From the NCBI GenBank assembly GCA_013001575.1, contig JABDMI010000008.1, positions 1 to 38,044 on the forward strand: a DNA stretch of 38,044 nucleotides, in the 5' to 3' direction. Of the stretch, positions 13,928-17,012 are shown in pieces (position 1 is the first letter of the stretch; each line of letters starts with the position of its first letter). This DNA is from Gammaproteobacteria bacterium. GTDB taxonomy: Bacteria > Pseudomonadota > Gammaproteobacteria > Steroidobacterales > JABDMI01. Below the pieces are notes generated by a model. That model made no database searches. It worked only from the letters and a program-made list of their open reading frames with translations, and had not been told where the DNA came from. The position numbers were made by a program, and so were the translations under genes.

Positions 13928-14221
13928 ATGAAATATTACGGCAACAAAGGCATTTTGAACAAGCTCATTGCTTTGATCTTGTTACTGCTTTGTACCCAGC
14001 TGTCTTATGCAGCGCATTCGCACGATGTTGACGATTTAAGTTTTGAGTCCTGCGCGACATGCCTGATGGCTGAAAATATCGAGCTTGATGATGTCATTTT
14101 GTCACCGTCAACAAAATTTATATCGCCAGAGTTTACCTCAGTTGAATCTCTAGCGATCACCTTCCTTGAACTATCGAAAAACAGATCTCGCGTATTATAT
14201 CTCCGCGGCCCACCCGCATAA
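13928..14221 (+). CDS. Small exported Cys/His protein upstream of TonB receptor (DUF2946/DUF2607-like)
   Basis: This 97-residue protein has a Lys-bearing N-terminus, a hydrophobic core LIALILLLLCTQ and a likely cleavage after SYA (about residue 28). The mature part starts AHSHDVDD, carries a CATC pair (Cys42, Cys45), and ends in RGPPA. A short exported protein with His, a Cys pair and a C-terminal R-x-P-P motif, next to a metal receptor gene, recalls the DUF2946/DUF2607 type. Those are often in zinc- or copper-controlled operons. I cannot confirm the family, and no function is known. It lies 71 bases before the receptor gene, with a hairpin between them. Confidence 0.7.
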   Translation: MKYYGNKGILNKLIALILLLLCTQLSYAAHSHDVDDLSFESCATCLMAENIELDDVILSPSTKFISPEFTSVESLAITFLELSKNRSRVLYLRGPPA

Positions 14222-14242
14222 TCACAACGTATCTCTTGGTTC

Positions 14243-14275
14243 ACACGTCGCCGACGTGTTTCTTTTATTTTCTTA
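14243..14275 (+). terminator. Hairpin with T-rich tail between small exported protein and TonB receptor genes
   Basis: ACACGTC (14243-14249) and GACGTGT (14253-14259) form a perfect seven-pair stem with a three-base loop. A T-rich stretch (TTCTTTTATTTTCTT) follows. It resembles an intrinsic terminator, leaky or regulated because a gene starts 18 bases after it. The T tract is broken by C and A, so strength is uncertain. Confidence 0.5.
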
Positions 14276-14292
14276 ATAATGAGAATGTGATT

Positions 14293-16383
14293 ATGAATAT
14301 TTCAATTAAAACCCCCGGTCGATCCGTATTATTACTATGTATTGTTGTTCTTTTTTCTTTTTCAGTCGTATACGCACAGGATGGGACTCATGAAGAACAT
14401 ACCGAGCATCATAATATTGAAGAAGTTGTTGTTACCGGGGTATTGAACAAATCTCAAAAAGAGACTGTTGCCCCTATTGCTGTGCTTGATCAAGAGGCAC
14501 TGCGCGAAAATGCCGCCAGTACAATTGGAGATATGCTGAAATCTCAGGTTGGGGTCAATTCGGTTTCATTTGGACCCGGAGTTGGTCAACCGGTGATTCG
14601 GGGGCATGGCGCCAACCGAGTGCAGGTATTACAAAATGGCAGTGGTGCATTAGATGCCTCAAATACCAGTCAGGATCATGCCAATGCAATCGAAGGTATG
14701 CTTGCAGAACGCATAGAGATAGTACGTGGACCATCAACTTTACTATATGGTAATGGTGCAATTGGCGGGGTTGTTAATGTGATTGATAAACGCATTCGTT
14801 CTGATCTGCCGGAAAGTACTTCAGGTGCCCTGGAATTTCGAAAAAATGACGTCAATAATGGAAACACGGGGGTTGCCATGCTCTCCGGAGCGGCTGGTAA
14901 TTTTGCCTGGCATGTTGATGGCGTTCTTCATTCGAATGACAATGTGTCAATTCCAGGTTTTGCACTCAAGGACTCTGCTGAAATGAGCAGTTTTGGTATT
15001 CTGGAAAATTCAGACAGTGAAAAGCGTGTTTATGGTGCCGGACTGACATTCATCGCTGATGCCGGGTACATAGGCTTGTCAATTAATGACATCGACAATC
15101 AATATGGCTTGCCACCCGGTGCACATGAGCATGAGGAATCACACGCAGACGAGGATGAGGAATTTACCCGCCTGGATATGCAACAAACCCGAGTAGACCT
15201 CAAAGCCGAATATTCACCGCTTTCGTCATGGGTAAATAAGTATTCAGCGAGTTTAACACTCAATGATTACATGCATAGTGAACTGGAAGGCGAGGAAATT
15301 GGAACGGTTTATGACAATCAAGGTCAAGAATTGAGAGTTAATGCACATCATCAAGGTGTATCAACTGACCTGAACGGGTCGCTGGGTTTGCATTATGTGA
15401 ATCGGGATTTTGTGGCAAAAGGTGAAGAAGTTTTTATTCCGGAGGCAAATATCAATGCTTTGGGCATCTACCTGATCGAGAGTTTAACTTTGGATAAATT
15501 AACATTTGAAGGTGGAATTCGTCTAGATCAACAACGAATCGATATTAATAGTCATTGTGATCCGCGCCATAATTCAATTTCATCAAATCTGGGCTTGATA
15601 TGGAATGTAAACAGCCAAGGAAGTTTGCATTTTTCTATTAGTCGCTCACAACGGGCGCCTGCCGTCGAAGAACTTTTTTCCAATTTTCAAAGTACTGGTT
15701 GCAACCCAAGTAGTAATTTACCTAATCCTGATGCGCTAGTGGAGCATGCCGCAACCAGACGTCTTGAAATTGGTGATCCAGGTTTACAAAAAGAGACTTC
15801 GTTGAATTATGAAATTGGCTATCGTCATCACCAAGGCCGAATTACTGGCGAAGCAACAACCTACATTAATGCTATAGATGATTATATCTATCTATCCGAC
15901 ATTGCAGATTTTGATGATGCAATTATCAGCCGTTATCTTCAGGAGGACGCCCGTTTCATAGGTGCTGAAGCAGATATTGATGTACTGCTATTTGAGACTG
16001 GCCGGGGCAATAAAGTTAATTTTTCTATATTTGGCGAGTATGTGGCAGCGGAGTTGCTTCGCGGACCTTATGTGCCAAGAATTCCACCACAACGAAGCGG
16101 AATTGAATTAAGTTTCACTGGACAAGACTGGAGTGTAAAAGTCAGAGACACTTTGGTTTATTCACAGAAAAAACTGGCGGCCAGGGAATCAAAACATTAT
16201 TCCTATAAGCGCATTGATGTTTATGCGGATTATCATTGGCATGTTGGAGATAAGCAATTTCAGTTTTTTGCCAATGGGCGCAATTTAAGTAATGAAGAAA
16301 TTCGTAATCATGCATCGTTTACAAAAGAATTTGCACCTGAGCCCGGGCGTTCAATTGAATTGGGTGTTCGTTACGTTTTTTAG
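14293..16383 (+). CDS. TonB-dependent outer-membrane receptor, ZnuD-like (probable zinc uptake)
   Basis: A signal peptide (cleavage likely after VVYA, residue 28) precedes a His-rich stretch EEHTEHH and a TonB-box-like IEEVVVTG. The plug domain contains GQPVIRGHGANRVQVLQNG and VRGPSTLLYGNGAIGGVVNV. The barrel ends in the outer-membrane signature GVRYVF. An extracellular-loop candidate near residues 276-291 is His/Asp/Glu-rich (HEHEESHADEDEE), and two Cys lie near residues 421 and 469; both features occur in Neisseria ZnuD. Zinc as substrate is therefore an inference; copper is possible. I chose ATG 14293 (696 residues) rather than the TTG at 14236 because it gives a proper signal peptide and has GAGAA upstream. 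Confidence 0.88.
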   Translation: MNISIKTPGRSVLLLCIVVLFSFSVVYAQDGTHEEHTEHHNIEEVVVTGVLNKSQKETVAPIAVLDQEALRENAASTIGDMLKSQVGVNSVSFGPGVGQPVIRGHGANRVQVLQNGSGALDASNTSQDHANAIEGMLAERIEIVRGPSTLLYGNGAIGGVVNVIDKRIRSDLPESTSGALEFRKNDVNNGNTGVAMLSGAAGNFAWHVDGVLHSNDNVSIPGFALKDSAEMSSFGILENSDSEKRVYGAGLTFIADAGYIGLSINDIDNQYGLPPGAHEHEESHADEDEEFTRLDMQQTRVDLKAEYSPLSSWVNKYSASLTLNDYMHSELEGEEIGTVYDNQGQELRVNAHHQGVSTDLNGSLGLHYVNRDFVAKGEEVFIPEANINALGIYLIESLTLDKLTFEGGIRLDQQRIDINSHCDPRHNSISSNLGLIWNVNSQGSLHFSISRSQRAPAVEELFSNFQSTGCNPSSNLPNPDALVEHAATRRLEIGDPGLQKETSLNYEIGYRHHQGRITGEATTYINAIDDYIYLSDIADFDDAIISRYLQEDARFIGAEADIDVLLFETGRGNKVNFSIFGEYVAAELLRGPYVPRIPPQRSGIELSFTGQDWSVKVRDTLVYSQKKLAARESKHYSYKRIDVYADYHWHVGDKQFQFFANGRNLSNEEIRNHASFTKEFAPEPGRSIELGVRYVF

Positions 16384-16448
16384 AGAGATTGATAAACTAT
16401 TGACTGTGAATTGTGTCAAAATCAGATAATTGGAACAGGAGGGTTGTT

Positions 16449-17012
16449 ATGCAATTATACGTTCGTCTTTTAAGCGTGCTCATGGTGTTTTCATTTGCGG
16501 CTTGCGCAACAACCCAAGGTAGTTCACCTGCAGAAAAGCGTCAATCCGTGCAGCAAATGAAATCTCAAGTATTGCAGGATCTTTATAAGGTCAAACCTGA
16601 TGTACGAAATCAGGTAAGTAGTGCACCAGGCTATGCTGTTTTTAGCAATGCAAACGTAAATCTGGTTCTGGCCAGTTTCGGCGGTGGTTATGGTGTGGTG
16701 CACAATAATCGTTCTGGTCAAGACACCTACATGCGAATGGGTGAAGTGGGTCTGGGATTGGGTTTGGGACTAAAGGATTTTCGAGCTGTTTTTGTGTTTC
16801 ATACTGAAAATAGTCTGAAACGCTTTGTCGATGAAGGCTGGGCATTCGGGGCACAAGCTGATGCCGCGGCTAAAGCAGCGGATAAAGGTGCCGCCGTCGG
16901 TGGTGAACTGACTGTGGATAATATTACTATTTACCAGTTAACTGAAACGGGATTGGCCTTGCAGGTCACGGTCAAAGGCACTAAATACTGGAAAGATCCT
17001 GACCTGAATTAA
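16449..17012 (+). CDS. YSC84-related domain lipoprotein
   Basis: The signal peptide ends SFAAC, a lipobox, so the 187-residue product should be a lipoprotein. The mature part carries the YSC84/SH3YL1-type domain (lipid-binding in eukaryotes): GYAVFSNANVNLVLASFGGG, then GLGLGLGLKDFRAVFVF, and an Ala-rich AQADAAAKAADKGAAVGGE. The bacterial role is unknown. A strong AGGAGGG (16436-16442), six bases before ATG 16449, fixes the start against a longer in-frame reading from 16413. It lies 65 bases after the receptor gene, so it could be co-transcribed or independent. Confidence 0.85.
   Translation: MQLYVRLLSVLMVFSFAACATTQGSSPAEKRQSVQQMKSQVLQDLYKVKPDVRNQVSSAPGYAVFSNANVNLVLASFGGGYGVVHNNRSGQDTYMRMGEVGLGLGLGLKDFRAVFVFHTENSLKRFVDEGWAFGAQADAAAKAADKGAAVGGELTVDNITIYQLTETGLALQVTVKGTKYWKDPDLN

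Follow-up and report, generated by a model that had tools for sequence, protein, structure and literature searches.

The locus analysed here raises the question of what a 97-residue exported protein is doing directly ahead of a TonB-dependent receptor. It lies in a 38,044-nucleotide stretch of a gammaproteobacterial genome of the order Steroidobacterales (contig JABDMI010000008.1), hereafter referred to as the window. An initial annotation had described the small protein as bearing HSH, a CxxC and a terminal RGPPA, and the receptor as carrying HEEHTEHH near its N-terminus, and these features were confirmed in the translations (Table 1); HEEHTEHH occupies residues 33–40 of the receptor and HEHEESHADEDEE residues 278–290. 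The upstream open reading frame (uORF) begins 79 bp after lysS, has a lysine-rich and hydrophobic N-terminus that by inspection resembles a signal peptide, and is separated by 71 nt from the receptor, whose start is most likely the ATG at 14293 rather than the TTG at 14236 of the listed ORF. Directly 3′ of the receptor, at 16413–17012, lies a gene for a SYLF/Ysc84-domain lipoprotein with no evident metal link.

Table 1. Predicted features of the uORF–receptor locus, in window coordinates
Feature	Position	Strand	Basis
uORF, 97-residue exported arrest-leader peptide, CruR/CutF-like (predicted)	13928..14221	+	ORF translation; 72 relatives aligned
uORF signal-peptide part, residues 1–29	13928..14014	+	by inspection
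uORF HSH, residues 30–32	14015..14023	+	alignment of 73: H30 invariant, H32 at least 90%
uORF CATC (CxxC), residues 42–45, proposed metal site with His	14051..14062	+	translation; CxxC spacing comparison
uORF RGPPA, residues 93–97, putative arrest motif	14204..14218	+	translation; PMC12992588
5′ arm CAUAAUCACA, from the end of the uORF's last codon through its stop codon to 4 nt beyond, within the predicted ribosome footprint	14217..14226	+	folding prediction
Hairpin ACACGUC-GCC-GACGUGU with U-rich tail, terminator-like	14243..14275	+	folding; rarely shared
3′ arm UGUGAUUAUG, includes receptor start codon 14293–14295	14286..14295	+	folding prediction
ZnuD-like TonB-dependent receptor, 696 aa	14293..16383	+	Pfam, NCBIfam and PDB matches; ligand alignment

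The receptor contains the plug (PF07715) and barrel (PF00593) domains, both above cut-off. Its best NCBIfam model out of 35 families was ZnuD NF038289 with 335.5 bits, a score below the 950-bit cut-off of this model, which is of the ‘exception’ kind; TonB-hemin followed with 139.7 bits. The best PDB match was likewise ZnuD (4rdr, E 2.7e-54; next match 3.4e-14). The zinc ligands named for Neisseria ZnuD are D99, H100, E340 and H499 (PMC4557270), and in the 4rdr alignment, on which this numbering was placed with an offset of 14, they correspond to D128, H129, E330 and H485. Thus resembling ZnuD of Neisseria meningitidis in its best structural match and in all four ligands, the receptor is supported as being of the ZnuD-like zinc type suggested in the initial annotation, with a predicted role in transport.

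Apart from the window's own, the receptor was located at 76 places in 69 genomes of the order (E ≤ 1e-60), and at this threshold a ZnuD-like receptor was present in 70 of 296 genomes, the window's included; it was absent from both other genomes of the genus at E ≤ 1e-20. A class-level search added 31 places in 28 genomes, for a total set of 108 ZnuD-like receptors from 98 genomes. A uORF was defined as an ORF of at least 55 aa with CxxC or CC and with a [RHK][AGS][PS][PG] tetrapeptide no more than 9 residues from its end. Such an ORF occurred on the coding strand in 69 of the 108 receptor-upstream stretches (68 with fixed spacing) and on the reverse strand in 0/108. Extending the upstream stretch for receptors that were only partly matched raised the count to 73/108, comprising 61 of the 76 receptors of the order, 11 of the 31 outside it and that of the window. 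Twelve other TonB receptors were found in the window's genome, of which seven had a locus, and none of these seven contained such an ORF on either strand. The pairing of uORF and receptor is more frequent than chance would give, and the conserved co-occurrence with ZnuD-type receptors that had been surmised for the two genes is borne out in other genomes.

The C-termini of the 73 uORF peptides read RAPP in 46, RGPP in 23, RASP in two and RSPP in two, and CxxC was present in 72, the remaining peptide having CC. All 72 CxxC motifs stand 43–47 residues ahead of the C-terminal motif, with a gap of 44 residues in 49 and of 45 in 18 (67/72) and of 47 in the window. Each of these 72 peptides has at least two His within the 22 residues before CxxC. 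His makes up 13% of the residues in that stretch and 3.4% of the 44 that lead up to the C-terminal motif; the peptides had been selected for CxxC or CC, not for His. In the alignment of all 73 peptides H30, C42, C45, R93 and P96 are invariant, an invariance that is partly chosen since Cys and RxPP were selection criteria. Four uORF pairs with more than 50% identity vary most at third codon positions, the pattern that translation of the ORF would leave. RGPP leaders with this layout were also seen before a further putative exported protein, whose N-terminus is coiled-coil-like (L015, L019, L021, L022 and L031), for which no match was found in NCBIfam (four tested) or Pfam (three tested).

Leaders of this kind are known from copper systems. 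CruR, the leader of bfrG/crtA in Bordetella pertussis, is an exported DUF2946 protein with CxxC, 45 residues and RAPP; when copper is low, the ribosome is proposed to halt at RAPP and keep Rho off, until copper releases it (PMC9426467). RAPP and RGPP are described as robust arrest sequences refractory to EF-P that are over-represented among small secretory proteins whose genes precede those of TonB receptors, CruR itself arresting in vitro with its two Pro codons in the P- and A-site according to toeprinting (Fujiwara et al. 2025, PMC12992588). The uORF product resembles the peptides of the latter report in its C-terminal RGPP, its small size, its predicted secretion and the location of its gene ahead of that of a TonB receptor. 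With CruR it shares the place of a small exported ORF heading a TonB-receptor operon, as predicted for the uORF from its distance of 71 nt to the receptor. It differs from CruR in having RGPP, added His and a gap of 47 residues, and CruR is reported to tolerate two more residues in this spacing. Neither Pfam nor NCBIfam gave a match to the window peptide, PF11162 (DUF2946) included, and the peptide is therefore CruR-like by layout and not by that model. As in an arrest peptide, RGPP sits one residue from the end, with RGP/P three codons ahead of the stop. By analogy with the CruR toeprint, the P-site would be on CCA 14210–14212 and the A-site on CCC 14213–14215. We regard control of the receptor by a predicted arrest leader as highly probable.

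For the small protein the initial annotation had offered two roles, a periplasmic metal chaperone or a regulator of the receptor. As a chaperone, the finished peptide would carry zinc in the periplasm and hand it to or from the receptor, and it is indeed predicted to be exported, bears His and Cys and adjoins the receptor gene. The metal site and arrest tail are its only conserved parts, however, at a mean column identity of 23%; a carrier has no need of a C-terminal RGPP or of a stop codon that pairs with the start site downstream, and CruR was reported as undetected in proteomics. A carrier thus appears scarcely credible, and the regulator fits best. A leader of the SecM type, which would monitor protein export and not metal, with Cys and His mattering for folding only, is very unlikely as well: SecM-type leaders likewise combine an arrest motif with a signal peptide and a masked start site, but His and CxxC are conserved at a fixed distance and always beside a zinc receptor (the set was built so), and no Sec gene was found after the uORF in the window.

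The leading edge of a ribosome lies about 15–17 nt beyond its P-site, and hence a ribosome arrested as proposed above would cover the 5′ arm of a ten-base pairing that, by folding prediction, is possible in the window between the uORF end and the receptor start (Table 1). Masking of this footprint reduced the cost of opening the receptor start by 5.39 kcal/mol, a drop reached by 10 of 1000 shuffles (0/100 in a smaller shuffle set). In 61 loci a receptor start was assigned, at a distance of 50–134 nt from the uORF (median 82); here the mean drop in opening cost was 4.57 kcal/mol as compared with 0.05 in shuffles (Wilcoxon p 2e-10), and 43 of the 61 were below p 0.1 in the single-locus shuffle test; one locus with no start codon at 40–140 nt (L097) had been dropped from the RNA tests. 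The gain was at least 2 kcal/mol in 45/61 loci and less than 2 in 16/61, some being negative. A scan of the masked edge gave a cost of about 10.3 on the upstream side; counted from the P-site, it was 10.6 at +3, 6.7 at +12 and 5.8 at +15, remaining flat thereafter, with the largest step between +6 and +15 in 41/61 loci. Chimeras with arms from other loci gained 1.64 kcal/mol against the real 4.57 (p 7.5e-9), and the real pairing surpassed every one of its own chimeras in only 15/61 loci.

Eleven class-level loci showed a drop of 3.30 kcal/mol versus 0.82 in chimeras. Of the 18 DUF2946 loci of the order, 14 were scored and gave 3.35 versus 0.80, with at least 2 in 10/14; three (L232, L235 and L239) had been left out before scoring, and one (L230) was without a start. 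The DUF2946 leaders (L224–L241) precede other receptors and membrane proteins, several of them OprC-like and one ZnuD-like by eye. Covariation was examined in 23 chosen sister pairs: pairing was retained in 334 of 388 pair cells, compared with 128–172 in slid controls, and among the 80 changed cells 54 were broken, 18 changed on one side and eight on both. Covariation support for the helix between footprint and ribosome-binding site (RBS) is weak.

In CutF of Rhodobacter capsulatus, the leader of cutO, a stem-loop hides the next start site (PMC9973294), and in the window a predicted stem-loop similarly shields the start site of the next gene. The uORF is also like CutF in being a putative exported sensor leader with a proline-rich C-terminus and a predicted stem-loop over the next Shine-Dalgarno sequence, and the layout as a whole is that of a SecM/CutF-like switch, in which the stretch covered by the arrested ribosome pairs with the receptor RBS. 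Judged from the folding predictions, RNA masking is probably a main route of receptor control. Neither the arrest nature of RGPP nor the RNA pairing had been recognized in the initial annotation.

Alternatively, control could be transcriptional, by attenuation: once the ribosome is released, Rho or the U-tailed hairpin in the intergenic region would end transcription before the receptor. CruR works via Rho, and the window does contain the hairpin with its U-rich tail; on the other hand, terminator-like sites were found in only 7/61 intergenic regions, five such sites against 2.9 expected were found in the stretch of the window that was scanned, and the pairing of footprint and RBS is far more widespread. 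Attenuation in place of masking is therefore unlikely, although both could work together. An intrinsic terminator was set aside as a common mechanism on the basis of the 7/61 loci, and the hairpin may be a second, transcriptional control layer in the window's lineage.

The initial annotation had suggested a search for Zur sites upstream of 13928 in related strains. In the window none was found there, the best match having 7/10 fixed bases (p=0.945), where a Zur-like box was defined as at least 9/10 bases of GTTATnnnATAAC. Related uORF-bearing loci do contain such boxes, in the order as a minority: 6 of 62 uORF-bearing receptors (expected 0.29) and 9 of 14 uORF-less ones (expected 0.05) had a box, and the corresponding numbers in the class set were 6/11 (expected 0.16) and 7/20 (expected 0.23). 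As 13/20 uORF-less receptors outside the order and 5/14 within it have no box of 9/10, uORF and Zur box are no strict either/or. A quick receptor tree (Zur box at 8/10, no bootstrap, the broken receptor L089 dropped, and the window's branch long and of unsure placement) required at least 16 changes for uORF presence and at least 17 for Zur-box presence, suggesting alternation of uORF and box within a single receptor family.

The zur gene was called with model NF008646 at E ≤ 1e-20, none of the matches being above the model cut-off; they formed two groups, of 76–128 bits and of at most 49 bits, the latter including the Fur of the window's genome. All 15 Zur-boxed receptors of the order are in genomes with zur. 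Genomes in which no zur was found hold 41 of the 62 uORF-bearing receptors of the order, the window's included, as against 2 of the 14 uORF-less ones (p 6e-4, uncorrected for relatedness and in draft genomes, where absent genes may be missed); one locus (L137), whose upstream region was cut by the contig end, had been dropped from this comparison. In profile searches of the window's genome, which is 96% complete, Fur and an IrrA-like protein were present and no Zur or ZnuA match was found. Zur control was accordingly rejected for the window, there being no box and the sole NF008646 match in the genome (48.5 bits) falling on the Fur gene. This is in contrast to N. meningitidis ZnuD, which is Zur-controlled. 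The IrrA-like protein, the second FUR-family member of this genome, scored 120.3 bits, below the cut-off of 150, and its gene (L223:734–1159, C71) adjoins a tRNA-like gene.

A zur gene was located no more than 7 kb from the receptor on seven contigs, in four cases a uORF-bearing receptor (G112, G104, G108 and G172) and in three a uORF-less one (G120, G243 and G006). A gene for the zinc-uptake protein ZrgA follows one uORF-less receptor, and an ABC ATPase comes after uORF-bearing and uORF-less receptors alike. The four zinc ligands are complete in 66/73 uORF-bearing and 33/34 uORF-less receptors, the other eight having gaps. With Zur boxes and neighbouring zur occurring at both kinds of receptor, the regulatory context is, as read from the sequences, that of zinc.

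These data bear on the choice between zinc and copper, which the initial annotation had left undecided. A leader sensing copper in the manner of CruR, with a receptor serving copper, would agree with CruR, CrtA/BfrG and CutF all being copper systems, with the ability of CxxC to bind Cu(I), and with the weak matches of DUF2946 to 28 of the 73 leader peptides (E ≤ 0.1; best 1.7e-6). Against it stand the ZnuD-type receptor with all four zinc ligands, which scored only 59.9 bits with the copper-receptor model, and the Zur boxes and nearby zur genes of uORF-bearing relatives. Copper is less likely than zinc as the metal, and the copper version is, in our view, quite unlikely; zinc is the likely ligand of the leader.

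We infer the arrest of the uORF peptide, zinc as its ligand and the direction of the response as follows. Under zinc shortage, translation of the leader would halt at RGP/P with the front of the ribosome over the 5′ arm, leaving the receptor start region free and allowing synthesis of the receptor. With enough zinc in the cell, the metal would bind the His and CxxC 47 residues behind the arrest motif, a distance placing the metal site near the exit of the tunnel or translocon; the zinc-bound nascent chain would fold or be pulled, the arrest would end, and the helix would close over the start codon and stop receptor translation. The predicted direction, with the receptor on at low zinc, is taken from the layout, in which arrest would free the start site, and from repression by Zur under ample zinc. 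That a zinc-uptake receptor is governed by its own upstream arrest peptide, through a start-site helix kept open by arrest until zinc ends it, seems reasonably likely in its main lines taken jointly.

The kind of control is known from the copper leaders, while the zinc target, the added His, the pairing of footprint and RBS across the family and the relation to Zur are new. CruR acts on copper, by Rho-dependent termination and across a 162-nt intergenic region, whereas here the receptor is of zinc type, 71 nt away, with its start codon masked by predicted RNA pairing. CutF has CxxxC, so that this copper motif is lacking in the uORF with its CxxC, and copper raises stalling on it and turns a multicopper oxidase on, whereas here the expected sign is reversed and the target is an uptake receptor. 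The portion of PMC12992588 drawn on here mentions neither zinc nor an RNA switch nor a relation to Zur, the features proposed for the uORF, and metal-sensing nascent chains in the cited papers concern copper only, with hints for nickel/cobalt. In the open-licence literature, we found no report on a uORF of ZnuD or on zinc-linked RAPP or nascent-chain arrest before TonB receptors.

More generally, zinc-sensing nascent chains with His and CxxC, about 45 residues and R[AG]PP may act on receptor translation via pairing of footprint and RBS and replace Zur for outer-membrane zinc uptake where Zur is absent, a proposal that we consider evenly poised. If true, the zinc version would explain how a zinc receptor is controlled in bacteria without Zur, and one RNA-level mechanism would apply to many RAPP/RGPP leaders.
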